In this document: positions 8,655-41,741 of the stretch, one piece after another | Numbering within the stretch: position 1 is the first letter of the stretch | Layout: every line of letters begins with the position of its first letter | Origin: Rhodanobacter sp. FW104-R8 | GTDB lineage: Bacteria; Pseudomonadota; Gammaproteobacteria; Xanthomonadales; Rhodanobacteraceae | Reading direction: 5' to 3' | NCBI RefSeq assembly: GCF_001617365.1 | Contig: NZ_LVJR01000120.1 | Coordinates: 1 to 50,326, forward strand | DNA: 50,326 bases | Program-made: the position numbers and the translations under genes | The notes under the pieces: model-generated | What the model was told of the DNA's origin: nothing | The model's database searches: none | The model's input: only the letters and a program-made list of their open reading frames with translations

Positions 8655-8721
8655 CGTTCTCGCTGGCGTGTCGGCATGGGCCGGTCCGCCTCGTCGAGGG
8701 CGGGCCGTTGCGTGGGAAAAC

Positions 8722-8871
8722 TCAGCTACGCACGACGCTCCGCCCGGGACCCGTGGTACCGGTGGTAATCGTGGTGGTAATGACGGCGGCGACGATGCCC
8801 GTGCACGACGGCATGCAGCCGGTGCGAGCCGGTGCGGAAGGCGTGCGTGCGGGCATGGAAAGCGGCGACAT
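8722..8871 (-). CDS. thrL: thr operon leader peptide
   Basis: A 49-codon frame ending with AAVITTTITTGTTGPGRSVVRS: a run of Thr codons mixed with Ile, the same logic as the E. coli thr leader, which senses threonine and isoleucine. It lies about 90 bases upstream of homoserine dehydrogenase and just below a promoter-like pair of boxes. ATG 8871 is preferred because the -10 box covers the upstream in-frame ATG at 8883; ATG 8814 would give a shorter peptide. No ribosome site is visible, and the predicted transcript starts about at the ATG. I could not find a convincing T-run terminator between this frame and the first gene. Confidence 0.8.
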   Translation of the reverse strand: MSPLSMPARTPSAPARTGCMPSCTGIVAAVITTTITTGTTGPGRSVVRS

Positions 8872-8878
8872 GGCGTCG

Positions 8879-8908
8879 ACCATAAGCGGATTGCTGCACT
8901 GCGGTCAA
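8879..8908 (-). promoter_or_regulatory. Sigma70-type promoter for the thr operon
   Basis: On the minus strand TTGACC (8908-8903) and TATGGT (8884-8879) are separated by 18 bases. The predicted start, near 8872, coincides with the leader ATG at 8871. Confidence 0.55.
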
Positions 8909-9021
8909 CAGGTGCATTTGCAACTTTCGCGGATGCCGGATGGGGACGGACGACGGCCGGCGACCTGCGGCAGGTTGTCGCGATCGGCCGATCCGCGCCC
9001 GGGCAGCGGGGCGCGCGGGCC

Positions 9022-9027
9022 TACAAT
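9022..9027 (+). promoter_or_regulatory. -10 box directly before a cytochrome gene (likely leaderless)
   Basis: TACAAT ends 6 bases before ATG 9034, so position +1 would be the A of the start codon. No ribosome site lies between them, and no good -35 box is visible. Confidence 0.4.
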
Positions 9028-9033
9028 CGGCGG

Positions 9034-9789
9034 ATGAACTGTCCTGTTTTCCTGCGCGGCGTGCCTCGCGCGGTCGTCGTGCTGCTCGCGCTGGGCATGT
9101 GCGGTGCGGCCTCGGCCGCCGGGCCCCAGGCCGGTGCCGCGCCGGTTCCCGATACCATGCAGCAGCGCGTGGCCGCGTGCACCAGCTGCCACGGCGCGCA
9201 CGGCGAAGGCTCGCCGGACAGCGTGGCGATCCCGCGCCTGGCCAGCAAGCCGGCCGGCTACCTGCTGCAGCAGCTGGAATATTTCCAGAGCGGCCAGCGC
9301 CGGCACGCACCGATGGAATACGTGGTGCGCCAGCTGAGCCCGGCGTACCTGCGCGAGATCGCCGAGTACTTCGCGCGGCAGGACGTGCCCTACCGGAAGC
9401 TGCAGGTGCCGGCGGTGTCCGTGGAGACCCTGCGGCGCGGCGAGCAATTGGTGATGCGCGGCGACTCCACCCGCGGCGTGCCGTCGTGCGTCAGCTGCCA
9501 CGGCGCCAGGCTCACCGGCGTGGAGCCGATGATGCCGGGCCTGATGGGCCTGTCGTACGACTACCTCAACACCCAGCTGGTGTCGTGGCGCACGCGCCAG
9601 CGTGCGGCCGAGGGGCCCTACTGCATGGGCGTGGTCGCCAACCGCATGCGCGAATCGGACATCACCGCCGTTTCCGCGTGGCTGGCCAGCCATGAGCCGC
9701 CGGCCGACATGCGCCCGGCGCCGGCCAGTACGCAGACCGAACCGTTGCCGGGCTGGTGCGTGATGGGCAAGAGCGGAGCGGGTCGATGA
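9034..9789 (+). CDS. Diheme cytochrome c (cytochrome c4-like)
   Basis: Periplasmic electron carrier. A Sec signal peptide (hydrophobic core about residues 13-22, AxA-type cleavage near residue 29) precedes two cytochrome c domains with heme motifs CTSCH at 49-53 and CVSCH at 152-156; methionines such as those in EPMMPGLMGL are candidate axial ligands. 251 residues. ATG 9034 is chosen because it starts the signal peptide. It shares an ATGA with the next gene (stop 9787-9789), so the two cytochromes are co-translated and probably act together. No partner oxidase or dehydrogenase lies next to them, so their electron source cannot be named. Confidence 0.88.
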   Translation: MNCPVFLRGVPRAVVVLLALGMCGAASAAGPQAGAAPVPDTMQQRVAACTSCHGAHGEGSPDSVAIPRLASKPAGYLLQQLEYFQSGQRRHAPMEYVVRQLSPAYLREIAEYFARQDVPYRKLQVPAVSVETLRRGEQLVMRGDSTRGVPSCVSCHGARLTGVEPMMPGLMGLSYDYLNTQLVSWRTRQRAAEGPYCMGVVANRMRESDITAVSAWLASHEPPADMRPAPASTQTEPLPGWCVMGKSGAGR

Positions 9790-11075
9790 CGTGGTGGCGA
9801 CGTGGGGCGTGGGTGACGGGGCTGCTGGTGCTGGCGGTGTCCGGCTGGCTGTACTTCGGCCAGGGTGTTTCGCGGTCGGCGTCGCCGGAACAAGGCGACG
9901 CCGATGCCGCCGCGCTGCACGATCCGGCGCTGATCGCCCGCGGCGAATACCTGGCCACGGTCGGCGATTGCGCCGCCTGCCACACCGCGCGCGACGGCCA
10001 GCGCTACGCCGGCGGCCGCTCGCTGGCCACGCCGTTCGGCGACGTGCCGGCGCCGAACATCACGCCCGACCCGGAAACCGGCATCGGCCGGTGGAACTTC
10101 GACGATTTCCGGCGCGCGCTGCACGAAGGCAAGGGCCGCCAGGGCGAACTGCTGTACCCGGTGTTCTCCTACACCTCGTTCACCAAGGTGACCCGCGACG
10201 ACGCGCTGGCGATCTTCGCCTACCTGAAATCGCTGCCGCCGGTGCGCCGCGCGGACGGCGAGCTGGGGCTGGGCTTTCCCTACAACGTGCGCAGCAGCCT
10301 GCTTGCGTGGCGCGCGTTGTACTTCACGCCGGGCGAATACCAGCCCGACCCGGCGAAATCCGAGCAGTGGAACCGCGGCGCGTACCTGGTGCAGGGCCTG
10401 GGCCATTGCAACGAATGCCACGCCGCGCGCGACTCGCTCGGCGGCATCGCGCAGGACCGCCAGCTCACCGGCGGCCGGATTCCGCAGTTGGACTGGTACG
10501 CACCCGATCTCGACACGCAGCCGGGCGGCGGCCTCGCCGGCTGGAGCGCGCAGGACATCGTCGACCTGCTCGGGACCGGCCGGTCGGCGAAGGGCACCGC
10601 GTTCGGGCCGATGGCCGACGTGGTGCGCATGAGCACCCAGCACATGACCGAAGCGGACCTGCAAGCGGTGGCGACCTATCTGCAGGCGCTGCCGCCGCGC
10701 ACGCCGAAGGCGGATGCGGCGCCGTTCAAGGCGGCGGCCAGCCACGAGCTGGGCGGCACGCTCTACGCGCAACGCTGCGCCGACTGCCACGGCAGGGACG
10801 GCCGCGGCGTGGCCGGCGTCTACCCGCCGCTGGACGGCAACATCTCGGTCACCGAGCCGACCGGCATCAACGCCATCCGCAGCGTGCTGCTCGGCGGCTT
10901 CGCCCCGGCCACCGCCGGCAACCCGCAGCCGTACTCGATGCCGCCGTTCGCGCAGCAGCTGAGCGACACCGACGTCGCTGCGGTGGTCAGCTACGTCCGC
11001 CAGTCGTGGTCGAACAAGGCCTCCGCCGTGCAGCCGGCCGACGTGGGCAAGTACCGGAACACACCACTCGATTGA
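9786..11075 (+). CDS. Triheme cytochrome c, alcohol/gluconate dehydrogenase cytochrome-subunit type
   Basis: 429 residues: an N-terminal membrane segment or uncleaved signal (about residues 8-24) followed by three cytochrome c domains with heme motifs CAACH (62-66), CNECH (208-212) and CADCH (331-335). This three-domain layout is that of the membrane-anchored cytochrome subunits of bacterial alcohol, aldehyde and gluconate dehydrogenases, which pass electrons to ubiquinone or an oxidase. ATG 9786 overlaps the stop of the diheme cytochrome gene. The flavin- or PQQ-containing catalytic subunit expected for such a complex is not in the neighbourhood, so it may be encoded elsewhere or the pair may form a different electron wire. 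Confidence 0.88.
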   Translation: MTWWRRGAWVTGLLVLAVSGWLYFGQGVSRSASPEQGDADAAALHDPALIARGEYLATVGDCAACHTARDGQRYAGGRSLATPFGDVPAPNITPDPETGIGRWNFDDFRRALHEGKGRQGELLYPVFSYTSFTKVTRDDALAIFAYLKSLPPVRRADGELGLGFPYNVRSSLLAWRALYFTPGEYQPDPAKSEQWNRGAYLVQGLGHCNECHAARDSLGGIAQDRQLTGGRIPQLDWYAPDLDTQPGGGLAGWSAQDIVDLLGTGRSAKGTAFGPMADVVRMSTQHMTEADLQAVATYLQALPPRTPKADAAPFKAAASHELGGTLYAQRCADCHGRDGRGVAGVYPPLDGNISVTEPTGINAIRSVLLGGFAPATAGNPQPYSMPPFAQQLSDTDVAAVVSYVRQSWSNKASAVQPADVGKYRNTPLD

Positions 11076-11093
11076 ACGGGGCCGGGGCCGTCG

Positions 11094-12338
11094 TCACGGC
11101 GCCGCCGGCCGTTGCGTCGACGGATGGCGGTGCCGGTACACCGCGACCAGGCCGAGCAGCGCCAGGGCGGCGAAGGCGGCGCCGGCCAGGAAGGTCGCCT
11201 GCGAACCGATCGCGCCCCACAGCCCGCCGGCGAGCACGCTGGCGAGCAGCAGGGCCACGCCGGTCACCAGGTTGAACACGCCGAACGCGGTGCCGCGCAG
11301 CGACGCCGGCGCCGCGTCGGCCACCAGGGTGGCCAGCAGGCCCTGCGTCATGCCCATGTGCAGGCCCCACAGCGTCACGCCGATCACCAGGCCGGCCAAT
11401 CCACCGATCAGCGCCAGCGCGAGATCCGCCAGCACCAGCACGGCGAATCCGCTGGCCAGCAGGACGCCGCGGTCCAGCCGGTCGGCGAGCTTGCCGATCG
11501 GGTAGGCCACCAGCGAATAGACCACGTTCATCAGCACCAGCACCGCGGGAATCAGCATCAGCGACAGCTTGAGCTCCTGCGCCCGCAGCACCAGGAACGC
11601 CTCGCTGAAGCGGGCCAGGGTGAACACCGAGGCGACCGCCACGATCCACCAGTACACCGCCGGCAGGCGCGACAGCTCGGCGCGCGACAGCGGCATGCGC
11701 ACCTGCTGCGCGCCCGGTTCGCGCGCCGCGTCGTGCACCCCGAACGTGATCAGCGCGAACGAGCCGAACGCCGGCAGCACGGCAAACCAGAACACCAGCG
11801 GGATGTCGTCGCCGGTCAGCCACATCAGCCCGATCGCCAGCAGCGGGCCGAGGTAGGCGCCGGTCGTGTCGAGCGACTGGCGCAGGCCGAACGCCGCGCC
11901 GCTCATGCCCGGCGGTGCCAGGTCGGCGATCAGCGCATCGCGCGGCGCGCCACGGATGCCCTTGCCGATGCGGTCCACGAAGCGCGCCGTCACCACCCAG
12001 CCCACCGTGTGCGCCAGCGGGAACACCGGCTTGGTGAATGCCGCCAGCCCGTAGCCGATCGCGGCCAGCAGCTTGCGCCGGCCCAGCCAGTCCGACAACG
12101 CGCCGGAGAACACCTTCACGATCGCCGCCGTCGACTCGGCGATGCCCTCGATGAAACCCACCGCCAGCGTCGAGATGCCGAGCGTGCCGACCAGGTACAC
12201 CGGCAGCAGCGCGTGGATCATCTCCGAGGAGACGTCCATCAACAGGGACACGAAACCCAGCGCCCAGATGCCTTTCGGGAGACGCTGCAGCGCCGTCACG
12301 GTGCGGGCGCGGCCGGCCGGTGGGTCAATCTTGCTCAT
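11094..12338 (-). CDS. Major facilitator superfamily transporter
   Basis: Inner-membrane secondary transporter with about 12 hydrophobic segments, 414 residues. The MFS loop 2-3 signature appears as GALSDWLGRRKLL and a second-half counterpart as GKLADRLDRGVLL; the DRIGKGIRGAPRDALIAD block is characteristic of a widespread uncharacterised MFS subgroup. Substrate cannot be inferred. ATG 12338 (MSKIDPPAG) is preferred over GTG 12353 because GTGGAAG precedes it at a suitable distance. It converges on the cytochrome pair with an 18-base gap and is divergent from the five-gene cluster at 12773. Confidence 0.88.
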   Translation of the reverse strand: MSKIDPPAGRARTVTALQRLPKGIWALGFVSLLMDVSSEMIHALLPVYLVGTLGISTLAVGFIEGIAESTAAIVKVFSGALSDWLGRRKLLAAIGYGLAAFTKPVFPLAHTVGWVVTARFVDRIGKGIRGAPRDALIADLAPPGMSGAAFGLRQSLDTTGAYLGPLLAIGLMWLTGDDIPLVFWFAVLPAFGSFALITFGVHDAAREPGAQQVRMPLSRAELSRLPAVYWWIVAVASVFTLARFSEAFLVLRAQELKLSLMLIPAVLVLMNVVYSLVAYPIGKLADRLDRGVLLASGFAVLVLADLALALIGGLAGLVIGVTLWGLHMGMTQGLLATLVADAAPASLRGTAFGVFNLVTGVALLLASVLAGGLWGAIGSQATFLAGAAFAALALLGLVAVYRHRHPSTQRPAAP

Positions 12339-12772
12339 GCCGGGTGCTTCCACGCGGGATCAGGGGGGCCGCCGGCCGTGCAGGCCGTTGGCGGAGGCCA
12401 GGTGCGACAGCTCGAAGGTGCAAGTCGTCGGCTCGCTGCTCGATGGGTACGCCGGGATTTGCCGCCCGTGCCGGAGCCGTGACGCCGGACCGGGGATGCT
12501 TGCCGCCGATGATAGCGGTTCGGCGACGGGATTCGCGGGCCGTCGGCGCGACAGGCCGGCCGCCCCGTGCTGCGGCATCCGTACGCAGGTGGCGGCCGGC
12601 ACGGATTGACGTGAGTCATGGCGCCCGCGCCGCCGCGCCCGCACGCTGCGCGGATGCCGATCCGGCGTCGGCTGTCGCGCGGTGGAACCGATGCCGCGCC
12701 GGCTGCCGCCGCAGAGTCGGGCAGACGGCGCACTCGAGTTCCACCATCGCTTGCTCACCACGGTTCCCGGGC
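12339..12772. other. Intergenic region between divergent genes
   Basis: 434 bases between the MFS gene and the start of the five-gene cluster. It presumably holds promoters for both directions. I see no small gene with a ribosome site, no strong terminator and no clear -35/-10 pair. Confidence 0.5.
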
Positions 12773-14014
12773 ATGATCCAGCTCAGCTACAGCACCTTCG
12801 GCCTCACCAACCTGCCGTTCCTGGCGGCCATCGACGCGGTGGCCCGGGCCGGCTACGCAGGCGTCGAGCTTTCCTTCCACCGCGAGCAGTTCAATCCCTT
12901 CAATCTCAGCGAGGCCGACCTCGACGACGTGCAGCGGCATCTGCGGACGGCGCGGATCGTGCCGGCCTGCGTGGCCACCGCCTCGCACTTCTTCACCCCG
13001 TCGCGGCCGCACGAGCCGTCGCTGCTGACGCTGGACGTGGCCGGGCGCAAGCGCCGCATCGACCTGGTCAAGCGCGGCATCCGCGTGGCCCGCCGGCTGG
13101 GCGTCGGGCTGGTCACCTTCGGCAGCGGCTTCCTGCGCGAGGAGCACGTGCGCCAGCCGGCGGTCGATCCGGGCGAGCTGCTGGCGGACAGCATCCGCGA
13201 ATGCCTGCGCGAGATCCGCGACGACGAGGACATCACGCTGCTGATCGAGCCCGAGCCGGGCATGTACATCGAGACGCTGGAGCAGGGGCTGGCACTGATC
13301 CGCGCGGTCGGCTCCCGCCGTTTCGCGCTGCACATCGACATCTGCCACGCCTACTGCTCCGAGCCGGACTACATCGGCGCGCTGGCGCAGGCCGCGCCGT
13401 TCGCCCGCTACCTGCACATCTCCGATGCGCGCGAGGGCCGCAATCTCAGGATCGTGCGGGACGATGCGGTGGCGGACTTCGACCTGGATGCCGCCAGCAC
13501 CCTGGTCTATTTTCCCGACACGGCGGACTACCTGCTGGTGGATCGCCGCCATCCGCTGTACTTCGGCGACCGCGCGCCCGACCCGGCGCGGCGCCGACGC
13601 ATCGAGGCCCTGCTGGCGCAGGCCGGCATCGACCGGCCGGCGGGCATGGTCGACTACGGCAGCCTGTACGCCGGCGCCTCGCCGCTGGACGACGAGATCT
13701 TCACCTACCTGATCTCGGTGCCGGGGCTGAGCTTCGACGTGCTCGAACGGGCCTGGCCGATCGTCGCCCACCTGCGCGGCGTGCGCGGCCCGGCGCTGTT
13801 CGACCGGATGGTCGCCAACACCCGCACCGGCATCGTGCATTTCCACGAGATTCCCGGCGAAGGCACGTTGGACCTGGCCGCCAGCTTCAAGGCGCTGAAC
13901 GAGCACGGCTTCGACGGCTTCGGTTCGGTCGAGCTCTACCACCACGTCGAGGGCTGGCAGCAGGCGCTCGACGACAGCTACCGCCACCTGGCCGCGATCC
14001 CGCAGCCGGCGTGA
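12773..14014 (+). CDS. TIM-barrel sugar isomerase/epimerase-like protein
   Basis: 413 residues. The N-terminus (LSYSTFGLTNLPF, then DAVARAGYAGVELS) is the first strand-helix of a xylose-isomerase-like TIM barrel; later strands carry candidate metal ligands in IEPEPGMYIE, LHIDICHAYC, LHISDAREGRN and, near the C-terminus, GSVELYHH. A segment of roughly 100 residues between the HISDA strand and the final strands makes it longer than the usual 260-300 residue members. ATG 12773 has no clear ribosome site; no better start is seen. It is first in a packed five-gene cluster, and ebo/edb clusters also encode a protein of this fold next to a sugar-phosphate cyclase and a UbiA protein, although this sequence does not look like canonical EboE. 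Likely acts on a sugar phosphate feeding the cyclase (inference). Confidence 0.75.
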   Translation: MIQLSYSTFGLTNLPFLAAIDAVARAGYAGVELSFHREQFNPFNLSEADLDDVQRHLRTARIVPACVATASHFFTPSRPHEPSLLTLDVAGRKRRIDLVKRGIRVARRLGVGLVTFGSGFLREEHVRQPAVDPGELLADSIRECLREIRDDEDITLLIEPEPGMYIETLEQGLALIRAVGSRRFALHIDICHAYCSEPDYIGALAQAAPFARYLHISDAREGRNLRIVRDDAVADFDLDAASTLVYFPDTADYLLVDRRHPLYFGDRAPDPARRRRIEALLAQAGIDRPAGMVDYGSLYAGASPLDDEIFTYLISVPGLSFDVLERAWPIVAHLRGVRGPALFDRMVANTRTGIVHFHEIPGEGTLDLAASFKALNEHGFDGFGSVELYHHVEGWQQALDDSYRHLAAIPQPA

Positions 14015-14043
14015 ACGCCCGGCCGTACCACCGAGCAACCACC

Positions 14044-14526
14044 ATGATCGACTTCGAGGCACTGGGCTGGCACAGCGATACCGTCGGCGAACTGGACCAC
14101 CGCCGGCTGAAGGCGCCCAGCGTCAAGCTGCGCGGCGCCCATGCGGGGGCCGCGGGCGACATCGTCTACACCGTCGACCTGCGCCTGCGCCGGCCGAACG
14201 CCGGCGCCTGCCTGTCGGACACCGAACTGCATTCGATCGAGCACTTCCTGCTCGAAGGCTTCGGGCGCCTGCTGCCGCAGCATTTCGTCGGCATCGGCGT
14301 GATGGGTTGCCGGACCGGCTTCTATCTCACCCTGCTCGGCGAAGGCCGGCGTGCCGTCATCGAGGACGCGCTGGCGGCGATCCTCGAAGGCGTGCTCGCG
14401 GCCGACGCCGTGCCGTATGCGCGCATCGACCAGTGCGGCCACTGGCGCAACCACGACCTGGCCCGCGCCCAAGCCGTCGCGCGCGAGGTGCTGGCGCGGC
14501 GCGCGGCGTGGCGGGACGTGGCATGA
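14044..14526 (+). CDS. LuxS-family protein (S-ribosylhomocysteine lyase-like), divergent
   Basis: 160 residues, against about 170 for LuxS. All key LuxS elements are present: the N-terminal LDHRRLKAPSV block (H19), the metal-binding HSIEH motif (H63, E66, H67), the catalytic MGCRTGFY (C89) and the third metal ligand in QCGHW (C131). LuxS cleaves S-ribosylhomocysteine to homocysteine and the AI-2 precursor using a bound ferrous ion and two keto-enol shifts. Outside these motifs it diverges strongly, and xanthomonads generally recycle S-adenosylhomocysteine with SahH instead. Its stop overlaps the cyclase start (ATGA at 14523-14526). That context suggests a ketose isomerisation or ribosyl-thioether role in a specialised pathway rather than housekeeping or quorum sensing (inference). 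Confidence 0.82.
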   Translation: MIDFEALGWHSDTVGELDHRRLKAPSVKLRGAHAGAAGDIVYTVDLRLRRPNAGACLSDTELHSIEHFLLEGFGRLLPQHFVGIGVMGCRTGFYLTLLGEGRRAVIEDALAAILEGVLAADAVPYARIDQCGHWRNHDLARAQAVAREVLARRAAWRDVA

Positions 14527-15674
14527 GCACCACGCCGGGCTCGCGCTGGCAGGTCAGCGCCACGCGTCGGATCGAGTACGACCTGCTCAACGTGGCCGAC
14601 GTGTTCGATCCGCGCAGCGACGCCCTGCTGTCGATGGGACGCGTGCAGGACGGGCGCCGCTTCGTGGTGGTCGATGCCTGCGTGCACGCGCATCATGGCG
14701 AACGCATCCGCGCCTACTTCGCCCATCACCGGGTCGACGCCCACATCATCACCCTGCCGGGCGGCGAGGGCGGCAAGACGCTGGAGGCGTGGCTCTCGGT
14801 GCTGCGCGAGCTGGACGGCTTTCCCATCCATCGCCGCGACGAGCCGGTCATCGCCATCGGCGGCGGCGTGCTGACCGACGTGGTCGGCTACGCGGCGGCC
14901 AGCTACCGCCGCGGCGTGCCGCACATCAAGGTGCCGACCACGCTGATGGGTTACGTCGACGCCGCGGTGGGGATCAAGACCGGGATCAATTTCAACGGCC
15001 GCAAGAACCGCCTGGGCAACTTCGAGCCGCCGCGCCGGGTGCTGCTGGATCGCAGCCTGCTGCGCACCTTGCCGCCGCGCCACCTGCGCAACGGCCTGTG
15101 CGAGATCGTCAAGCTGGCCGTGATCAGGGACGCCGCGCTGTTCCGCCTGCTGGAGCAGCACGGTGCGCCCTCGCTGGCGACGGCCTTCCAGGACGCGCGC
15201 GGCGGCGACATCCTCGACCGCGCCATCGGCGGCATGCTGGAGGAGCTGGCGCCGAACCTGCACGAGGAAGAGTTGGCGCGCAAGGTCGACTTCGGCCACA
15301 CCTTCAGCTACGGCCTGGAAACCCGCCACGGGGACGACCTGCTGCACGGCGAGGCGGTGCTGCTGGACATCCTGGTGTCGACCGCGATCGCGCGGCGGCG
15401 CGGCCTGCTCGGTGCCGCCGCGGCCGGGCGGATCTTCGCCCTGATCGGGCGCCTGGATCTCGCCCCCGACCTCGCCCTGCTCGACGCCGAACTCATGTGG
15501 CAGTCGCTGCTGGATCGCGTCGAGCACCGCAACGGCCAGCAGCGCGTGCCGCTGCCCGCGGCGGTCGGCGAATGCGTGTTCGTCAACGACATCGCGCGCG
15601 CAGAAATCGAAGCTTCCATCCAAACCTTGCATGACCGGACCACGACAAGCCATGACCGAATCGCCGAATGTTGA
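14523..15674 (+). CDS. Sedoheptulose 7-phosphate cyclase-family enzyme (3-dehydroquinate synthase-like)
   Basis: 383 residues of the dehydroquinate-synthase fold. NAD-binding GGGVLTD is at 113-119. The diagnostic stretch VDAAVGIKTGINF followed by GRKNRLGNFEPP (146-170) matches 2-epi-5-epi-valiolone-synthase-type cyclases and EboD rather than true DHQ synthases, which read VDSSVGGKTGVN. Metal ligands are E194 (GLCEIVK), H259 (FGHTFSYG) and H275 (LHGEAV). Such enzymes convert sedoheptulose 7-phosphate to C7 cyclitols. ATG 14523 overlaps the luxS-like stop; the gene's end overlaps the methyltransferase start by 23 bases. The exact product cannot be predicted from sequence by eye. Confidence 0.85.
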   Translation: MSTTPGSRWQVSATRRIEYDLLNVADVFDPRSDALLSMGRVQDGRRFVVVDACVHAHHGERIRAYFAHHRVDAHIITLPGGEGGKTLEAWLSVLRELDGFPIHRRDEPVIAIGGGVLTDVVGYAAASYRRGVPHIKVPTTLMGYVDAAVGIKTGINFNGRKNRLGNFEPPRRVLLDRSLLRTLPPRHLRNGLCEIVKLAVIRDAALFRLLEQHGAPSLATAFQDARGGDILDRAIGGMLEELAPNLHEEELARKVDFGHTFSYGLETRHGDDLLHGEAVLLDILVSTAIARRRGLLGAAAAGRIFALIGRLDLAPDLALLDAELMWQSLLDRVEHRNGQQRVPLPAAVGECVFVNDIARAEIEASIQTLHDRTTTSHDRIAEC

Positions 15675-16362
15675 TGCCGGGGAAATCGCCCACTTCAACC
15701 GCATCGCCCAGCTGTGGTGGGACCCGCACGGCAAGATGGGCCAGCTGCACGCGATCAACGAGCTGCGCCTGCGCTTCATCACCGACCGCATCGGCGTGCC
15801 CGCGCCGCGCGTCGTCGACGTGGGCTGCGGCGGCGGCATCCTGGCCGAGGCGCTGGCCCGGACCGGCGCGCGGGTGACCGGCATCGACCTGTCGCGATTG
15901 TCGCTGGACATCGCCCGCCAGCATGCCGAACGCGGCGGGCTCACCATCGACTACCGCTACCTAGACGCGGAAACCCTCGCGCGCGAGGAGGCTGGCAGCT
16001 TCGACGCCGTCACCTGCATGGAAATGCTCGAGCACGTGCCGCATCCGGACCGGGTCATCGCCGCCTGCGCCGCCCTGCTCAGGCCGGGCGGCGTGGCGTT
16101 CTTCTCCACCATCAACCGCACGTTCAAGGCGTTCGCCTTCGCCATCGTGGCCGGCGAGTACATCCTCGGCCTGCTGCCGCGCGGTACCCACAGCTACCGC
16201 AAGCTGATCCGGCCGACCGAGATGCGCGCGTGGGCCGCCGCCGCGGGGCTCGAGTTCAAGGCGGTGGACAGCCTCATGTACAACCCGCTCACGCGCCGGT
16301 TCCGCGTCGCGCCGAATCGCGAAGACATCAACTACATGGCCTGCTTCGTCAGGAAGGGCTGA
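15652..16362 (+). CDS. UbiG-like SAM-dependent O-methyltransferase
   Basis: Class I methyltransferase with SAM motif VDVGCGGGILAEAL at 55-68 and the UbiG-typical VTCMEMLEHVPHP, LRPGGVAFFSTINRT, GEYILGLLPRGTH and DINYMACF blocks; about 236 residues. E. coli UbiG methylates two hydroxyls during ubiquinone synthesis. ATG 15652 (MTESPNVDAGEIAHF) matches the UbiG N-terminus; ATG 15631 is an alternative, and both overlap the cyclase gene. Its place in a cyclitol-type cluster suggests either a paralogue that methylates the cluster product or, less likely, the genome's only ubiG. Counting ubiG homologues in the genome would separate the two. Confidence 0.85.
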   Translation: MTESPNVDAGEIAHFNRIAQLWWDPHGKMGQLHAINELRLRFITDRIGVPAPRVVDVGCGGGILAEALARTGARVTGIDLSRLSLDIARQHAERGGLTIDYRYLDAETLAREEAGSFDAVTCMEMLEHVPHPDRVIAACAALLRPGGVAFFSTINRTFKAFAFAIVAGEYILGLLPRGTHSYRKLIRPTEMRAWAAAAGLEFKAVDSLMYNPLTRRFRVAPNREDINYMACFVRKG

Positions 16363-16368
16363 AATCCC

Positions 16369-17262
16369 ATGCAGCGTTTTCTCGCCTTGTCGCGCTCCCT
16401 CCACGGCGTGCTCGACATCGCCATGCCGGGCTTCGTCGCGCTGCTGTGGCTGGGGCGGTTTCCGTCGTGGCCCGTGCTGGCGCTGTGCCTGGCGACGGCG
16501 CTGGCCGGCTATACGGCCATCTACGCGCTGAACGACCTGATCGGGGTGAAGGACGACCAGGAAAAGGTCGCTGGCGGGATCACCCCCGGCTACGCGGTGG
16601 AGGCGTCCGCCATGCGCTACCCGCTGGCGCAGAACCTGATCAGCATGAAGGGCGCGCTGGCGTGGTTCGGCTTCTGGTTCGCGCTGGCCGTGCTCGGTAC
16701 CTGGCTGCTGAACCCGATGATCCTGCTCATCGTGTTCGCCGCGGCGGCGCTGGAAGTGGTCTACGTCAAGCTGCTGAAGGTCACCTGGTGGCGCACCGTG
16801 GTCAGCGGCCTGGTCAAGTCGGCCGGCCCGGTCGCCGCCGTGTTCGCGGTGATCCCCGCGCCGCCGTGGTCGGGGCTGCTGGGGATGCTGATCTGGCTGA
16901 TGCTGTGGGAAATCGGTGGGCAGAACATCCCGGCCGACTGGAACGACCTCGAGGAAGACCGTCGCATCGGCGCGCGCACCATTCCGCTGGTCCTTGGCCT
17001 GCGCACCGCCAGCGCGCTGGTGGCGATCAGCCTGGGCCTGACCGTGCTGGCCAGCGCACTGCTGCCGCGCCTGTCGCCGCTGGCGGGCGGCTGGCCGTTC
17101 CAGCTCGCCATCCTCGCCGCCGGCGCCGGCCTGCTGCTGCCGGCGGCGTTCCGGCTCGCCCGCACGCTGGACGGCCGCCAGGCCGCGCGCCTGTTCGACC
17201 GCGCCAGCCTGTATCCGCTGGTGTTGCTGGTCATTGTCACGGTGTTCGTGTTGATTCGCTGA
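16369..17262 (+). CDS. UbiA-family membrane prenyltransferase (EboC-like)
   Basis: 297 residues with about eight hydrophobic segments. Two aspartate-rich UbiA motifs are visible: NDLIGVKDDQEK at about 55-66 and DWNDLEEDRRIGARTIP near residues 188-204; they bind prenyl diphosphate through magnesium in UbiA enzymes. Motif one lacks the usual Asp at the fifth position (NDLIG instead of NDxxD), as may happen in members with altered substrates. It starts 6 bases after the methyltransferase stop. In ebo clusters a UbiA-like protein (EboC) accompanies the cyclase (EboD), which supports a membrane-linked final step here. Confidence 0.85.
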   Translation: MQRFLALSRSLHGVLDIAMPGFVALLWLGRFPSWPVLALCLATALAGYTAIYALNDLIGVKDDQEKVAGGITPGYAVEASAMRYPLAQNLISMKGALAWFGFWFALAVLGTWLLNPMILLIVFAAAALEVVYVKLLKVTWWRTVVSGLVKSAGPVAAVFAVIPAPPWSGLLGMLIWLMLWEIGGQNIPADWNDLEEDRRIGARTIPLVLGLRTASALVAISLGLTVLASALLPRLSPLAGGWPFQLAILAAGAGLLLPAAFRLARTLDGRQAARLFDRASLYPLVLLVIVTVFVLIR

Positions 17263-17350
17263 GGCGGCCGTCGAATCGCCACCGCAGGGTTCTTGCCCGG
17301 TCGCATCGTGCTGTTGCTCCCGCGCACAGGGCCTTCGGCCCGTGCCTCTG

Positions 17351-17770
17351 TAGGAGCTCGCTCGCGGGCGATGCTCTGGTTTGTCTCCGCGTCCGGAACG
17401 AACAGCTTTCAAAGCAAGAGCTTTCGTGCGCCTCCGGCGCCCGAGTTACTTTCTCTTTGCGTGCTCAAAGAGGAAGTAACCAAAGAGAAAGAGCACCCCG
17501 CTTCCGCGCTTTCCGGGCATCCTGCCCGGAAAGTTCGCGTGCGGGCTCCGGGGTTTGTCGACAGGGCATCCTGCCCTGACGACAAACTGGTTCGCATCCA
17601 TGCGAACCACCCTTCGGGCTTTTCCTCCGCCCGCCCGCCGCTGCAGAGGGGACCCGGAAGAGCAGCGCGCATCCTGCGCGCACTCTTCAGAAGAGCCAGA
17701 TCAAGAGCGAGAGCGAAGCCACAGCAAATCGACGCTTTGCTGTGGCTGTTGCTTTTCAGCTTCAACGCGA
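17351..17770 (+). repeat. Long hairpin-rich dispersed repeat, copy A (with adjacent REP)
   Basis: This fills most of the 663-base gap 17263-17925. A GTAGGAGC-type REP lies at about 17351-17380, and the long element runs from about 17412 to 17770. It is a series of hairpins whose stems differ but whose loops mostly contain ATCC: 17510-17532 (TTTCCGGGC/GCCCGGAAA), 17553-17587, 17589-17608 (GGTTCGCAT/ATGCGAACC), 17657-17689, plus 17719-17745 with another loop. Shared blocks GCAAGAGCTTTCGT, AGTAACCAAAGAGA and GCACCCCGCTT also occur, inverted, at 20845-21187. No real gene is seen; reading frames across it look like repeat by-products. Confidence 0.8.
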
Positions 17771-17925: not shown

Positions 17926-20589
17926 TCACCGATTCGGTCGGAGCTCCAATGCGTCAACGTTGCTGAGGACGGCGAGGACGGTCTCGACATGGACCATGTC
18001 GAAATCGTCCCGGTTTGGCTCTTCGTGTGCGCCCTTGTTGAGGAGCGTCCAAACCAAGTTGTCCTCCGGGATGCCCAGGATCGTGTTCAGGTTCTCGAGC
18101 AGCGGCGCCTTACTATCGTGGGCGAAGGTCTGCGCGTCCATCAGCTTCTTGCGCAGCGCCGTGCACAGGCCATAAAGCTGTGGCTCCTTGCCGGGCCCTT
18201 CGATTTGCACCGAAATGTTGCCCACCCGATGCGATTCGAGCCACTTCCAAGCTTTGTGGGTGAGCATCTCCAGTGACTTGCGCGCGAATGAGAGCGCATC
18301 GCGAGCGTTGAAGCGTTCGTCGATTGCTTCCCTTGCGCGCGCCAGATAATTTTGAGTCCCCGGTGGGTTTACGCGTGGCTGATAGTCGCCGCGGTGGTGC
18401 AGTAGCACGTACTGGTGGCAGTCGTCTCGGAGATCCCGCGGCAAGTGGTTCTCGATATCCTTGACGAACTCGGGGCTGTGGCAGGTGAGGATGATCTGCG
18501 TCTGCCGAAAGCGCTCCGACTCGAAAATCGCCGCGCGGATGCCGCTGCGATGGTCGTGGTCGATCGCATTGATTGCGTCATCGAAGATGATGAGCGGAGC
18601 GCCCACAGCCTCAGCCTTCGCCAATAGGATCGCGAGACCCAGACAGCGGATGTGTCCCTCGCTCAAAGCGGCGAGCGCGTTCACTCGCTGCTGGGGGTTA
18701 CCGCGAAAGGCGATGTCAATGATGCCGTCGCCAGTGAGCGGCAGGCGGAGGTCAGCTAGCTTGTCCTCGCTGCGGTCTCCGTGGTTGAACTCGTTGTATA
18801 GCGCCATGGTCGAAGCGTTCAGGTCCGCCATAAGCATGCCGGGAAGCTGCTCGCGAAAGCGTCCAAGCAGACCGTAGAAGCTGTCATAGGCCTCTTTGAT
18901 AGGCCGATCGCGCACGTTGGCCTGCTCTTCCTCGCTCGCGCGCCTGATCAGGTCGGCGTTCGCTTCTTCCCACAGCGTGATGCGGCCTCGGGCCTGCGCG
19001 GCGTTCTCTATGACCTGGCTGCGGCGACCGTCGTGCTCCGCCATCCAGACGCGGGCTTCGTTCAATCGCGTCTGCTCTGCCATATCTTCGTCGCGCCGTA
19101 GCAATGCCTCGCGTGTGCGTTCGTCGCGCGCAGCGGCTTGATCGGCCACGACCAAAATCTGCTCAAGCGATGGCGTCGCGCCGGTCTCGTCGGTCTCCGG
19201 CGAGTACACAGCTATCCACCAATCGGGAGCCTCGGGGTTGCGAGGTAGGGCGTGCAGGTAGGCCCCGACCAGTGTGTCCGCCCTGCCTTCGCTCACCAGA
19301 AACTCTTCGAGATTGCGAAGGCCGGTTCGCAGGGCGCGGCTTGCCTCGCCTGCTGCGCGCCGCAGACTATCGTGGTCAGCTTCGAGTCTCGCGAGCTCTT
19401 CGAGTTCGCGCAAGCCCGCGTCGGCCCGCTCGAACGGGTTGCTCGCTACTTCGGTGATTGGCGTCAGGCACGCCGGGCAGCGATCCTCGCGCTCTGCGCG
19501 CAGAGCCTGCACTGCGGCGAAGAGCTGTCGGAAAGAGACTTGGCTGCGTTGCTCGTCGAGACTGCGTTGCGAGGTTGCCAAGTTCTTCACGCCAATATCC
19601 GCGTTGGCGAATAAGTCGGCAACAATCTGGCGCGAGCAATTCGTGACTGCCGGTATCAGCGAGCGCAGCTTCGTGTCGAGCTCCTGCAGGCGACTGGGCG
19701 TCTCCTCGCTTCCAAACACCAACAGCTTGAGATTGTTATAGGTGAGGTTCTCGGCGACGCCTGTGGCGTAGTCGGCCGCGGCTTCATCAAGGGCACGGAG
19801 CTGCTCCACCTCGCCGTCGCGCGTCAGTTCGTCGGTCCGCAGGGCTTGCCTGCAACCGGCTAGCTGTGCCTGCGTCTCGGTGGTGAGCGTGAGCGCAGCG
19901 TCCATCGACTCATTGAAGTGCAAGGCGAAGTTGTTGAACTGCTCCATTCCGAACAGAGTCGCGATCAGGTCGGTCTTGCGCCCGGGAGACGTCGCGGCTA
20001 TCCGCGAGAAGTTATCGATCCGGTTCTTTTCGACGAAGAAGAAGCGAAACGCGTCCTCGTCGGCGGCGACCCGGACCTCACCGCCCTCAGCATCAGTAGC
20101 TGTGAGATTTGGGTTGGCGAAGCGACCGGCGTGGATATTGGCAAGGTAATCACGCTGCTCGATCCGCCTCGAGCCCGCCTCTTCTACGGCTCCGCACAGC
20201 GCGTATTCGAGCGCCTCGCACAAACTGCTCTTTCCGCTGCCGTTCGGCCCGTAGCAGAGGGTGACTCGTTTGCTCAGATCGAAGGTCTGGGGCTCGCGAA
20301 AGCCGCGAAACGGCCCTAGGGTTAGGGAGCGCAGCCGAAGCCATGGCCATTGCCCTTGGGCGGTCGCGTCGGGGAGATCTGGAAGATCCGCGCTCGTGGT
20401 CGCAAGGTGTTGGCGGGCCAAGCGCGCCAGGAGTTGCGAACGGTTGTTGCGCTGCCTGGCCATCGCGGCCACAGCCTCGAAGTTCGCCAGCGTCAGGTTG
20501 GCCATCCTGCGCGAACTTTCAGGGGCGAGGCGTCCGGGGTCGTTCAACCAGCGCACAAAGCGTTCAAAATCCTGTCTTGCGGTGCCCAT
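17926..20589 (-). CDS. Zinc-hook ABC/SMC-like ATPase, possible RloC-type nuclease
   Basis: 887 residues. Walker A GPNGSGKSS at 114-122; long charged helical arms interrupted by a zinc-hook CPAC at 371-374; ABC signature LSEGH at 642-646; Walker B LIIFDDA at 666-672; H-loop histidine H704 in ILTCHSP. After the ATPase head comes a tail of about 170 residues with R770-x3-E774 (ARKSLEM) and H855 (NKGAHEE), an R-x3-E...H pattern like the anticodon-nuclease triad of PrrC/RloC. That tail assignment is inference. ATG 20589 is chosen because GGGGGCAGG precedes it directly. There are no partner genes; the gene sits alone between inverted copies of a dispersed repeat, with a less GC-biased codon third position than its neighbours, consistent with transfer. 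Possible single-gene phage defence; a repair ATPase is the main alternative. Confidence 0.8.
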   Translation of the reverse strand: MGTARQDFERFVRWLNDPGRLAPESSRRMANLTLANFEAVAAMARQRNNRSQLLARLARQHLATTSADLPDLPDATAQGQWPWLRLRSLTLGPFRGFREPQTFDLSKRVTLCYGPNGSGKSSLCEALEYALCGAVEEAGSRRIEQRDYLANIHAGRFANPNLTATDAEGGEVRVAADEDAFRFFFVEKNRIDNFSRIAATSPGRKTDLIATLFGMEQFNNFALHFNESMDAALTLTTETQAQLAGCRQALRTDELTRDGEVEQLRALDEAAADYATGVAENLTYNNLKLLVFGSEETPSRLQELDTKLRSLIPAVTNCSRQIVADLFANADIGVKNLATSQRSLDEQRSQVSFRQLFAAVQALRAEREDRCPACLTPITEVASNPFERADAGLRELEELARLEADHDSLRRAAGEASRALRTGLRNLEEFLVSEGRADTLVGAYLHALPRNPEAPDWWIAVYSPETDETGATPSLEQILVVADQAAARDERTREALLRRDEDMAEQTRLNEARVWMAEHDGRRSQVIENAAQARGRITLWEEANADLIRRASEEEQANVRDRPIKEAYDSFYGLLGRFREQLPGMLMADLNASTMALYNEFNHGDRSEDKLADLRLPLTGDGIIDIAFRGNPQQRVNALAALSEGHIRCLGLAILLAKAEAVGAPLIIFDDAINAIDHDHRSGIRAAIFESERFRQTQIILTCHSPEFVKDIENHLPRDLRDDCHQYVLLHHRGDYQPRVNPPGTQNYLARAREAIDERFNARDALSFARKSLEMLTHKAWKWLESHRVGNISVQIEGPGKEPQLYGLCTALRKKLMDAQTFAHDSKAPLLENLNTILGIPEDNLVWTLLNKGAHEEPNRDDFDMVHVETVLAVLSNVDALELRPNR

Positions 20590-20844
20590 CCTGCCCCCTG
20601 CACGCGACCACGTTGCTGTGATGCGGTTTGGAGCATAGCGCGCTACGCAATATCGGCAGCTTCCCCAATGTCCGCTCCGGGTCGCAAGCGGACATTCCGG
20701 ACCGATCAAGTCTGTACTGTATTGGATCTCCCGCAGGCCGGCCCTGAGGCCGACTCAACGAGCGGAGCGCGAGATGTTTTTGGCGCGTGTGACGCGGCGG
20801 GATGGCAATTGCCAACAACATTGAAGGCGCAGGCAGCGCGGCCT

Positions 20845-21187
20845 TGGCTTTTCTAAAAAGTGCGGGCCAGGATGGCCCGCTGCTCTACCCGGGGTCCCTT
20901 GCGCGGCGGTGAGTTGGGGACGACAGGCCGCGCCAGCGGGCGTTGCCAGGGATGGCAACGCCTTTTCGCACGGGCAGGCGACGGCATGGATGCCGGAGTT
21001 GAGGCAACGCAGGAGCAGTTGCCCGAGCCTGCTCGAAAAGCCCGGCCCCGACTCACGGACTTGCCGGGCAGGAGCCCGGCAAGCGCCAAGCGGGGTGCCC
21101 CTCTCTTTGGTTACTTTCTCTCGGGCAAGCGAGAGAAAGTGACTCGCCCTCCGAAGGAGGACGAAAGCTCTTGCTCTTCTAGTGTGC
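20845..21187 (-). repeat. Long hairpin-rich dispersed repeat, copy B (inverted)
   Basis: This occupies much of the gap 20590-21277. On the minus strand it carries the same blocks as copy A (GCAAGAGCTTTCGT, AGTAACCAAAGAGA, GCACCCCGCTT) and the same kind of hairpins: 20862-20880 (GCGGGCC/GGCCCGC), 20939-20962 (GGCGTTGCCA/TGGCAACGCC), 20982-20995 (CGGCAT/ATGCCG) and 21060-21083. Loops again read ATCC or TCC on the minus strand. The rest of the gap, 20590-20844, shows only a short TGTCCGC inverted pair near 20665-20697. Confidence 0.8.
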
Positions 21188-38642: not shown

Positions 38643-40601
38643 TTACAGCACCTCGACGACCTTTGCAAAAAGTCGCTCGAAACGCCCTAGCGCATCAGGT
38701 TTGAGTCCCGTGGCCGTCAGCGCCGGTAGCACGGCCTGGGCGACACGGTAGTGGTTGAAGCCACCATCCTTCAACAGCGTAATACTCTTCGTCTTCAGCC
38801 AATGGTTGATGCGTTCAATCATGCGTGGCTGCTCGCTCAGCTCGGCGACCGTCAAAGTGACACCGTTGAGTTCCTTGGCGTAGGCCTGATTGAACGCTGC
38901 GATATAGGCGTCGGCCGGTAGAAGGTCTTCGATGTCGGCCTCGCCCGCCTGCGACTCAAGGAACATCGAAAAGTCAAGGACACGTTTGCGTTCGATGAGC
39001 TTCTGGCGGACCAGGTCCTCAAGCCTCTGGTGTGGGGTGGCGGCGCGGTCGTGTAGCACCACAAGCTTCAGCTTGTTCGATCCGAGAAGTGCGACAAAAG
39101 TGGCGAGCTTGTCTAGGCCGCCGACTGGCACCAGGATCGCGTCCCCCAGGCCTTGTTTGCCTTCGGCTTCCAGCAATGCGCTCACATGCTGCAGCAGGAT
39201 CAGGTCGGCGGGACCTTCGATCAATATGTTCTTCTTTGCGATGAACAGATTCTGCGCAATGGAGTATCCGAGCGCGGCCTGCAGGGGAAACACGCTTTCG
39301 TCCGACGAGCCAGCTAGGTCGCCGGTAACTTTAGTGCCATCCTTGATGCGATCCTCGACGACACGCACATCTTCAAGGCGCGCACTGTCCACCATGAACG
39401 GCGAGTGCGTCGAGTAGATAATCTGGTGCTGCTCCGACAGCTCGCGTATATAGGCTAGAAAGTCGGCTTGTGCCAACGCGTGCAGATTCAGGCCCGGTTC
39501 GTCGAGAAGCAGCACGAGAGCATCCTTTGTCGCGGCGCGCGACTGAACGGCGTCGAACCAGACCAGGAAGCTGAAGAACCAGATGAAGCCTTTGCTACGC
39601 TGGTCAAACGGAACTGTCACACCGTGCCGGCGGTTCTTGATGCGAATGTAAAGATTGACGCCGCTGTTGTATGGCGCAACATCCTTGGCGTCGCTTTTGA
39701 GATCGAACTCGACATCCAGATCCTGATTCTGTTTCCAGAACTCGAAGATTTTCTGCGTGATGTTCAGCCCAATTGCCTCTAGCTTGGCTTTTGCGGTTTC
39801 GTAGCCTTCGTCGCTCATCAGCTCCTGTAGCGTTGTGCCGGCAAGTTGTAAGAGGCCTTGCGCCGTTTCGTCGGCATCCGTCAGTTTGCCTGCGGCTGCA
39901 CGCTGTTGCAGCGCCGGCAAGTTGATCTTGCCTTCAAGCAGCTTGTAGTCGTCAAAATAGAGGAATTTCGGCAGTGCCGGCGAAAGGTACGCTCTCCATA
40001 TATATCCCTTGACGAGATCCCAGCCGGAATCCTTGACGTCGCGAGCACGCCATTGCGTAACGAAAGTGGCGAGCTTGCTATCCGCTGGCAAAGTCAGAGC
40101 TTCGATCTTTGTCAGCACATCGACGAGTGTGCGCGCTCCGGCGAAGACTTCGTCCTTGTGCTCCAAGTCGCCGAGCGACTGCTTCAGGGCAGCCAATGCC
40201 GCATTCTGGTCAATCTGGAATCCGATGCTGCTCGTGTTGGCGATGGTCGTGTCGCGTGTAAACGTGGTACCAGCAGCGACGATCTCGGCGCCCCCAAAGG
40301 CTTCCTTGTTGATCTTATCGGCCAGTGCCTTCTCAATGCGGAATGTCAGCTCGACGACTTGCTGATAATTCTCGGCGTCGTGCTGCGGCCGGTAGTGCAC
40401 CAAGTCCTTGCGCGGGTAGTCGGCGACGAAGTCGTACTTGGCGGTACCGAGCGGCATGGCCTTGTGCAGCGCTTCGAGGAACGCGGTCTTGCCGGACTCG
40501 TTCTTGCCGACCAGTACTGTCACGTCGTCTGCGAGCGCCACAGGCGTCGAGTCCTCAATGGACTTGTATTTCCAGACCTGCACTTTGATTAGCGTTAGCA
40601 C
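38643..40601 (-). CDS. OLD-family ATP-dependent nuclease (ABC ATPase + TOPRIM)
   Basis: 652 residues. ABC ATPase: Walker A GKNESGKT at 32-39, Walker B LVLLLDE at 362-368, H-loop STHSP at 397-401. The C-terminal TOPRIM nuclease domain begins KNILIEGPADLILL (E462, D466) and has VVLHDR (D518) where most members show a DxD-like pair. OLD proteins cut DNA and several act in phage defence. GTG 40601 is chosen because GGAGGAATT directly precedes it; there is no ATG close to the domain start. It lies 187 bases from the tRNA, convergent to it, in DNA clearly less GC-rich than the core. No GajB/UvrD-type partner is adjacent, so it looks like a stand-alone class. Confidence 0.85.
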   Translation of the reverse strand: MLTLIKVQVWKYKSIEDSTPVALADDVTVLVGKNESGKTAFLEALHKAMPLGTAKYDFVADYPRKDLVHYRPQHDAENYQQVVELTFRIEKALADKINKEAFGGAEIVAAGTTFTRDTTIANTSSIGFQIDQNAALAALKQSLGDLEHKDEVFAGARTLVDVLTKIEALTLPADSKLATFVTQWRARDVKDSGWDLVKGYIWRAYLSPALPKFLYFDDYKLLEGKINLPALQQRAAAGKLTDADETAQGLLQLAGTTLQELMSDEGYETAKAKLEAIGLNITQKIFEFWKQNQDLDVEFDLKSDAKDVAPYNSGVNLYIRIKNRRHGVTVPFDQRSKGFIWFFSFLVWFDAVQSRAATKDALVLLLDEPGLNLHALAQADFLAYIRELSEQHQIIYSTHSPFMVDSARLEDVRVVEDRIKDGTKVTGDLAGSSDESVFPLQAALGYSIAQNLFIAKKNILIEGPADLILLQHVSALLEAEGKQGLGDAILVPVGGLDKLATFVALLGSNKLKLVVLHDRAATPHQRLEDLVRQKLIERKRVLDFSMFLESQAGEADIEDLLPADAYIAAFNQAYAKELNGVTLTVAELSEQPRMIERINHWLKTKSITLLKDGGFNHYRVAQAVLPALTATGLKPDALGRFERLFAKVVEVL

Positions 40602-40802
40602 AATTCCTCCGAAGGTAATCTTGTTGGGATCCGGATTCTGGCGGGCTCCGTGATCAGTCCCGAAAGCGTCCAACTCAATGCTTGTGTAGGAAAGTCACCG
40701 TAGCCTCGGGCGGTCGCTCCACACTGCGGCCTGGATATCCAGTGCACATGCGTTGATTCAATTGATCATCAGAAGTGCGATTGCTTGGCCGGGGATCAGC
40801 GT

Positions 40803-41042: not shown

Positions 41043-41059
41043 CTCGATCACCACTAAAT

Positions 41060-41078
41060 GCATCAATACGATTGATGC
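41060..41078. promoter_or_regulatory. Palindromic operator candidate in the hsd promoter
   Basis: GCATCAAT-ACG-ATTGATGC: perfect 8-base arms with a 3-base spacer, in the gap between divergent genes and covering the -35 box at 41072-41077. A repressor bound here would block hsd transcription. Confidence 0.55.
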
Positions 41079-41100: not shown

Positions 41101-41114
41101 TGTCTATCTAGCGC

Positions 41115-41723: not shown

Positions 41724-41741
41724 ATCAGTAGAGGATCGAAG

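Follow-up and report, generated by a model that had tools for sequence, protein, structure and literature searches.

A LuxS-like gene and a sugar phosphate cyclase gene in a conserved five-gene block: a candidate pathway from sedoheptulose 7-phosphate to a prenylated membrane lipid

Introduction

LuxS is commonly annotated as the synthase of the autoinducer-2 (AI-2) signal. In a 50,326 nucleotide long stretch of DNA from Rhodanobacter sp. FW104-R8 (contig NZ_LVJR01000120.1, C120 in our numbering, hereafter the window; genome size 3.72 Mb) a gene of this family lies directly upstream of a sugar phosphate cyclase gene, in a block that also encodes a xylose-isomerase-like TIM barrel protein, a UbiG-like methyltransferase and a UbiA-like prenyltransferase. 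This raises the questions what a LuxS-like enzyme contributes in such a block and what the five enzymes make together. We show that the five genes recur as a unit in several phyla. We propose, tentatively and with somewhat less than even confidence, that they constitute a single, self-contained operon whose enzymes build a membrane lipid from sedoheptulose 7-phosphate.

The five genes form a conserved unit

The initial annotation of the locus had described five same-strand genes separated by overlaps or by gaps of less than 30 bases. All five open reading frames (ORFs) are indeed present on the plus strand. The gene of the TIM barrel protein (12773..14014, 413 aa; Pfam AP_endonuc_2, 126.6 bits) is followed after a 29-base gap by that of the LuxS-like zinc enzyme (14044..14526, 160 aa; PF02664, 103.5 bits), which overlaps by 4 bases with the gene of the cyclase (14523..15674, 383 aa; DHQ_synthase, 119.6 bits). 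After a 23-base overlap the UbiG-family O-methyltransferase follows (15652..16362; Pfam methyltransferase domains with up to 93.1 bits) and, after a 6-base gap, the UbiA-superfamily membrane prenyltransferase (16369..17262; PF01040, 92.3 bits). For the UbiG-like gene an alternative in-frame start, an ATG at 15631, lies upstream. Profile searches with Pfam and NCBIfam back the five families as they had been assigned, and both signatures named for the cyclase, VDAAVGIKTGINF and KNRLG, were located in this protein. The GC content at third codon positions ranges from 0.89 to 0.94 across all five genes. In the region 12300-17600 no promoter-like sites were found, while two terminator-like sites compare with 1.7 expected from shuffled sequences.

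We searched 84,980 species genomes with an alignment of the cyclase, using two peptide patterns. This provided 181 relatives, the best 80 of which were taken as named loci. The LuxS-like gene lies directly upstream of the cyclase gene in each of these 80 loci. The TIM barrel, UbiG-like and UbiA-like genes were found in 79 loci each, and all five genes occurred in the same order on one strand in 77, some outer genes being cut by the end of a contig. Such contig ends account for the one missing TIM barrel gene (L066) and the one missing UbiA-like gene (L062). In two loci the TIM barrel gene aligns as two pieces, separated by about 100 bases in Mycobacterium simulans (L101, 6105-7450) and by about 9 bases in an Anaerolineae contig (L045, 2498-3699); an insertion, a divergent stretch or a broken gene are possible causes.

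Denser samples gave the same picture, with the five-gene order judged as far as the short loci from the genus and Chloroflexi samples reach. Among Rhodanobacter, which provides the nearest named relatives of the cyclase, 5 of 25 genomes of a first sample carried the cyclase, all five (own genome included) with the five-gene order; in the full genus sample it was present in 10 of 45. In a class-level sample of 369 genomes, a match to the LuxS-like protein at E<=1e-15 was found in 12 genomes, our own among them. Of the remaining eleven, three (L014, L015 and L016) were of the cluster type with adjoining cyclase and ubiG genes, the contig of L016 starting just before luxS such that the TIM barrel gene is out of view. 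No cyclase was found beside the LuxS match in the remaining eight genomes of this sample, and one of these eight genes adjoins a nucleosidase-type gene, as judged from reading its translation. Within 199 genomes of one Chloroflexi class the cyclase was found in 8, the search centre included, and in all 8 the other four genes adjoin. Only 3 of them are new, the other five being identical to named loci.

The hosts are diverse. On the side of the Xanthomonadales they comprise Rhodanobacter, Luteimonas, Thermomonas, Dokdonella and Lysobacter. Further hosts are Burkholderiales, many Anaerolineae, one Eremiobacterota bin, the gamma proteobacterium HdN1 and three mycobacteria: Mycobacterium angelicum (L084), M. 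szulgai (L085) and M. simulans (L101). Many of these records are metagenome bins, for which single host names may err; isolates are also included. In a tree of the cyclases (see below) the three mycobacterial sequences nest inside the Chloroflexi rows, which suggests transfer of the whole cluster between phyla. Neither cluster-type cyclase nor cluster-type LuxS was found on plasmids, where every match had less than 60% identity.

We also compared what surrounds the block. Among 3059 flanking ORFs of the 80 loci, spurious ones included, the commonest family occurred in only 11 loci (BLAST, E<=1e-12, 60% cover). The conserved part thus consists of these five genes, within a comparison that is blind to more distant families and includes many loci with short flanks. 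A transporter, regulator or resistance gene conserved with the unit was likewise not found in the flanks of the 80 loci. The recurrence of the five genes is far beyond chance. At the level of the genes there is strong support for a widely conserved pathway that is either ancient or widely transferred. The pairing of luxS and cyclase is hence not a peculiarity of this strain, and the strict co-conservation across phyla backs the single-pathway reading that the initial annotation had put forward.

The LuxS-like protein is separate from canonical LuxS

The LuxS-like protein has the fold of the family. Its predicted model (predicted local distance difference test score of 95) matches Helicobacter pylori LuxS (1j6x) with a root-mean-square deviation of 1.1 A. 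Among the NCBIfam profiles it remained below the cut-offs of all ten S-ribosylhomocysteine lyase models that it matched: the best score was 113 bits at a cut-off of 208, and the lowest of the ten cut-offs, 158, was missed at 100.9 bits.

For a residue-wise comparison we aligned 84 cluster rows with 38 canonical rows. The cluster rows probably represent 82 different genomes, as the contigs of L014 and L015 equal those of L068 and L072 in length; the canonical rows comprise 35 different sequences, and 36 of the 38 come from one bacterial class. Every cluster row that has a letter at the respective site (83 or all 84) retains H19, R47, H63, E66, H67, C89 and C131. Zinc ligands, catalytic Glu and Cys as well as active-site His and Arg are thus common to both groups. 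Other positions separate them. An Asp six residues before the catalytic Cys, which we take to be a homocysteine-binding residue, is present in 38/38 canonical but in 0/84 cluster rows (Ser in 69, Gly in 9, Cys in 6). A canonical Arg (38/38) is replaced by Lys in 81/83 cluster rows and retained in 2/83, a canonical Ala (37/38) by Arg in 82/83, and a canonical Ser (36/38) by Gly or Ala in 84/84. A canonical Pro (38/38) gives way to Leu, Val or Ile in 76 of the 84 cluster rows and is kept in 8. Lastly, 83/84 cluster rows have no residue aligned to the Ser-Phe pair that precedes the LDH motif in the canonical rows. A tree calculated from 18 cluster rows and the 38 canonical ones split the two groups with 100/99 support; one canonical row (L019) formed a long branch whose join is unsure.

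Canonical LuxS acts in the methyl cycle, with Pfs as the source of S-ribosylhomocysteine. We therefore inspected this cycle in 37 cluster genomes chosen for spread (G000, G002, G006, G018, G024, G157, G369, G139 and 29 named-locus genomes). Each of the 37 contained exactly one LuxS-family gene, and by position this sole gene was the cluster gene in 29 of 29 named-locus genomes as well as in the other eight. SahH was over its cut-off in 36 genomes, the exception being G369, which is 94% complete. Pfs remained below the cut-off in 29 of the 37, and in our own genome it gave no match at all. In most host genomes checked the LuxS-like gene is separate from the methyl cycle.

Compared to S-ribosylhomocysteine lyase, the cluster protein is thus alike in fold, zinc ligands and catalytic Glu and Cys. 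It differs in the lost pocket residues, in its separate clade, in its place inside a biosynthetic operon, and in genomes where Pfs is mostly not over the cut-off. Judged from these features, the enolisation and elimination steps of LuxS have most likely been retained in this clade and are applied to another substrate, probably in a new reaction. The clade as a whole seems to have moved out of the methyl cycle and into biosynthesis. The label 'S-ribosylhomocysteine lyase' is then probably wrong for its members, and so probably is any inference of AI-2 from them in Anaerolineae or in these mycobacteria.

The cyclase belongs to the sedoheptulose-7-phosphate-cyclase group

Ranking of the cyclase against the PDB placed the 2-epi-5-epi-valiolone synthase (EEVS) ValA (4p53) first with 333 bits, followed by 5tpr with 256 bits, while other 3-dehydroquinate synthases (DHQS) reached 148 bits and less. 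The PDB labels 5tpr as 3-dehydroquinate synthase; we take it to be desmethyl-4-deoxygadusol synthase (DDGS). We further calculated a maximum likelihood tree of 36 rows, in which 24 cluster cyclases, picked from 81, were combined with references: ValA, three plasmid-borne EEVS-type sequences, L128, two DDGS-type sequences (5tpr and L126), two EboD and three DHQS. The plasmid-borne cyclases were called EEVS-type solely from their annotation as sedoheptulose 7-phosphate cyclase, L128 is one further cyclase with this annotation, and the DDGS-type labels draw in part on neighbouring genes.

The 24 cluster cyclases formed a single clade (99/99). This clade sits in a region of 31 rows (99/99) that it shares with the EEVS-type and DDGS-type rows; EboD and DHQS branch outside this region. 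Within the region the EEVS-type rows are not one clade, and in the tree 3qbd and L128 are on long branches. At the sites aligned to D281 and H360 of ValA, which presumably separate EEVS from DDGS, all 24 cluster rows carry D and H, while the DDGS-type rows carry A and T. Both EboD rows likewise have D and H, such that these sites tell EEVS from DDGS but not from EboD. PMC4426668 mentions a 14-residue fingerprint for such cyclases; the comparison here covered these two sites.

Taken as a housekeeping AroB, the cyclase scored 206.5 bits at an NCBIfam cut-off of 305, and the tree places it away from DHQS; this candidate was rejected. A second, AroB-like match is found elsewhere in the genome, on contig C27. 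Tree, PDB ranking and missed AroB cut-off together uphold the earlier assignment to the sedoheptulose-7-phosphate-cyclase type. By these relationships the substrate of the cyclase is probably sedoheptulose 7-phosphate.

ValA is accordingly the closest solved sequence relative of the cluster cyclase and shares D and H at the two aligned sites; it differs at position 263 (see below). The plasmid-borne sedoheptulose 7-phosphate cyclases have annotated neighbour genes of the ROK family, which do not occur in the five-gene unit.

The methyltransferase and the prenyltransferase suggest a prenylated product

The UbiG-like protein passes the UbiG equivalog model TIGR01983 with 254.8 bits at a cut-off of 102.95 and matches PDB entry 4kdc with E 1.6e-68. 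A separate UbiG is encoded in the same genome (contig C29, 263.5 bits) and is 48% identical over 211 aa to the UbiG-like protein. Substrates of UbiG are prenylated catechols, which together with the equivalog score argues for an aromatic prenylated intermediate. Chloroflexi and mycobacteria, which are also hosts of the cluster, are not known as ubiquinone makers.

The UbiA-like protein carries a first motif NDxxGxxxD and a second motif of the type DxxED. In an alignment of 80 rows N55, D56 and D63 are conserved in 79/79 rows with a letter, and N192 and D193 in 77/77. Position 59, where the classical UbiA motif has Asp, is Gly in 78/79. No PDB relative was found for this protein by sequence at E<=0.01. 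The third and fourth of the conserved putative metal positions of the TIM barrel protein (H215 and E387) are separated by a long stretch.

Proposed pathway

We infer all substrates, products and the order of steps in the following scheme, and its product is hypothetical. In a first step the cyclase would convert sedoheptulose 7-phosphate into a ring of the 2-epi-5-epi-valiolone type, a C7 cyclohexanone polyol. Enolisations of this ring and beta-eliminations of water from it, catalysed by the TIM barrel and LuxS-like enzymes, would then lead to an aromatic hydroxymethyl-benzenetriol. In this step the carbonyl-migration and beta-elimination chemistry of LuxS would be reused on a substrate free of homocysteine. 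Two water losses, at C5 and C3 of the valiolone-like ketone, would give hydroxymethyl-benzene-1,2,4-triol. Both would be beta-eliminations next to a ketone, as LuxS catalyses after its carbonyl shift and as TIM-barrel dehydratases catalyse. The UbiA-like enzyme would next add a polyprenyl chain at the membrane, at the free ring position of the triol, and the UbiG-like enzyme would methylate one catechol oxygen. The para hydroxyls could finally oxidise to the quinone, such that a methoxy-hydroxymethyl-polyprenyl hydroquinone/quinone would be obtained that would resemble ubiquinone yet be independent of chorismate.

In the initial annotation the precursor was isomerised, cyclised, methylated and prenylated, in this order. 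A prenylated and methylated end product is the natural reading of UbiA plus UbiG and is kept here. The order is possible as well, but we think that the TIM barrel and LuxS-like enzymes act after the cyclase.

That the product is a ubiquinone-like respiratory or protective quinone made from sedoheptulose 7-phosphate without chorismate, with a LuxS-family enzyme catalysing a dehydrative aromatisation of a cyclitol, is a speculative possibility that we hold to be rather doubtful. If true, this would add a new reaction to those of LuxS, and proteobacteria, Chloroflexi and a few mycobacteria would share an isoprenoid quinone of a new class. Since the unit is small, recurs across phyla and comprises enzymes that are each expressible, its lipid or quinone product should be directly identifiable. 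The unit provides a gene-based handle on whether cyclitols of the pentose-phosphate pool feed membrane quinones.

So far as the literature searched shows, the pathway looks undescribed as such, in line with the initial annotation, which knew of no described pathway with this set. No pathway description was found in the open-access literature, and the five genes were found printed together only in PMC8756737. In the part of this work available, Table A1 lists xylose isomerase-like, LuxS, EEVS, UbiG and UbiA, in this order, near nirS of Chloroflexi SURF MAG 42, merely as neighbours of nirS and with their function uncommented there. The nearest chemical precedent is BE-40644 of Actinoplanes. According to the accessible text of PMC5133447, this compound is made from 2-epi-5-epi-valiolone and is farnesylated, presumably by a UbiA-superfamily enzyme. 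By description only, both systems would combine an EEVS-type cyclase with a UbiA-superfamily prenyltransferase towards a prenylated cyclitol-derived compound; they differ in that LuxS is not mentioned in that text for BE-40644.

Several observations weigh against the proposed pathway. Position 263 of the cyclase is Tyr in 23 of the 24 cluster rows sampled and His in the other one, while it is Pro in the EEVS-type rows including ValA, in the DDGS-type rows and in L128, and His in DHQS and EboD. With Tyr in place of Pro the cyclase may yield another product than EEVS does. The structures closest to the TIM barrel protein are ketose 3-epimerases and not dehydratases. In favour of the pathway, its Foldseek matches listed also include AsbF (3dx5), a probable 3-dehydroshikimate dehydratase, and the hydratase AtHYD (8ro4). 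The unit holds no gene for a prenyl diphosphate synthase, an oxidase or a transporter. In one Chloroflexi locus (L081, 7507-10053) the cyclase and UbiA-like genes abut with no ubiG between them, and the sole methyltransferase-like match is weak (28 bits) and lies far away at the edge of the locus, so that methylation is not essential everywhere. Pfs is over the cut-off in 8 of the 37 cluster genomes, the three mycobacteria included, and S-ribosylhomocysteine could thus be available there. One further genome (G410) has two partial Pfs matches of 63.2 and 30.6 bits in one frame, which were not counted. Lastly, a non-aromatic prenylated and methylated cyclitol also fits the list of genes.

Alternative explanations

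The alternative that survives best follows the same pathway logic and ends in such a non-aromatic prenylated cyclitol lipid, which is possible, though we would not expect it. The TIM barrel and LuxS-like enzymes would here merely epimerise and shift the ketone of a heptulose or cyclitol, UbiG would methylate a ring hydroxyl and UbiA would join the polyprenyl chain. This agrees with the 3-epimerases as top structural matches of the TIM barrel. It is also established from the first steps of LuxS that its active site is capable of aldose-ketose isomerisation without elimination. An isoprenoid-cyclitol compound was moreover proposed by the ebo authors as product of their cluster, as stated in the accessible text of PMC5133447. 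The methyltransferase, however, is by score a UbiG equivalog, of a family acting on prenylated catechols. The rings prenylated by most UbiA enzymes are likewise aromatic or electron-rich.

Instead of a lipid with a respiratory or membrane-protective role, the same five enzymes could make a polyprenyl-linked secondary metabolite, such as an antibiotic, a siderophore-like or a signalling compound. Patchy presence of the kind seen here (10 of 45 Rhodanobacter; 8 of 199 in the Chloroflexi class, search centre included) is typical for such pathways, as is apparent transfer across phyla like that of the mycobacterial cyclases within the Chloroflexi rows. Since the flanks revealed no transporter, regulator or resistance gene conserved with the unit, we consider this explanation unlikely.

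The LuxS-like protein might also be an ordinary S-ribosylhomocysteine lyase that recycles the S-adenosylhomocysteine produced by UbiG, while the other four genes make the lipid. It belongs to the LuxS family, has all catalytic residues and shares its operon with an S-adenosylmethionine-dependent methyltransferase; the 8 genomes with Pfs and the partial matches in G410 point in the same direction. Against this stand Pfs not over the cut-off in 29 of 37 genomes, our own included, with SahH over it in 36, the loss of the canonical pocket residues, and L081, which keeps its luxS-like gene though no ubiG is in the block. We consider this explanation quite improbable.

The last comparison concerns the ebo/edb clusters, as the initial annotation had called the locus 'ebo-like but rearranged'. 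Both systems combine a sugar phosphate cyclase, a xylose-isomerase-like TIM barrel and a UbiA-superfamily prenyltransferase. The cluster differs by its extra LuxS-like and UbiG-like genes and by the lack of EboA, EboB and EboF, families of which no member was found among the five genes with Pfam and NCBIfam. As references we used two EboD that were over the NCBIfam cut-off among 200 genomes of the phylum (loci L121 and L122). The ebo-type set of L122 was named by reading its ORFs and L121 may be partial, such that the EboC comparison rests on L122. A hidden Markov model (HMM) of the cluster cyclase gave 186 and 161 bits to the two EboD, compared to 416 to the sedoheptulose 7-phosphate cyclase of Streptomyces clavuligerus. 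The HMM of the cluster TIM barrel reached 14.5 bits over 44 profile positions with EboE of L122, and that of the cluster UbiA gave no match in L121 and L122 (EboC) at E<=1e-3. Membership in ebo was thus rejected part by part: EboD falls outside the cyclase clade, and the TIM barrel and UbiA proteins are not orthologue-like to EboE and EboC of these two loci. Going by these scores and the tree, the resemblance to ebo is one of recipe, not of descent. An ebo variant in which LuxS-like and UbiG-like genes stand in for EboA, EboB and EboF is therefore the least probable explanation, even though the recipe is common and the two EboD rows share D and H at two fingerprint sites.

Denitrification genes and genomic surroundings

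Because the cluster had been printed beside nirS in the accessible part of PMC8756737, we tested a link to denitrification in Rhodanobacter. NirK was over the cut-off in 10/10 cluster-bearing and in 25/35 other genomes, a difference that was not significant (Fisher two-sided p 0.087). Partial matches to the NirK model (about 186-204 bits) occurred in 9/10 cluster genomes, our own being the exception, and in 4/35 others; the p value of 7e-6 is post hoc and uncorrected for relatedness, and we do not rely on it. In some Rhodanobacter (G722 contig C56 with locus L161, G018 contig C27, G715 and G716) the cluster lies within about 10-40 kb of a NirK-model match. The surroundings of L161 contain a NarK-like transporter, ModABC-like genes and an Fnr-type regulator, as named by eye. 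The flanks of this nitrate-respiration-like locus are not shared: relatives of the Fnr-type regulator were found in 6/80 loci, one of which is the same locus.

Upstream of the cluster in the window (8668-12353) two cytochrome c genes and a divergent major facilitator superfamily (MFS) transporter are located. Across the 80 loci the second cytochrome gene has a relative upstream of the cluster in L025, L026, L029 and L035, while the MFS transporter matched only L102.

The cluster is directly followed by a large gene for an AAA/SMC-like ATPase (17926-20709, minus strand), which matches several defence ATPases at a weak to moderate level (at best 68.5 bits). The gene is flanked by a 44-base inverted repeat, 84% complementary, at 17413-17456 and 21132-21175. 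Farther downstream, positions 38643-48772 represent a probable defence island. This contains an OLD-like AAA/TOPRIM protein on the minus strand (38643-40673) and a type I restriction-modification operon in which a BRO-N protein is encoded between the methylase and specificity genes.

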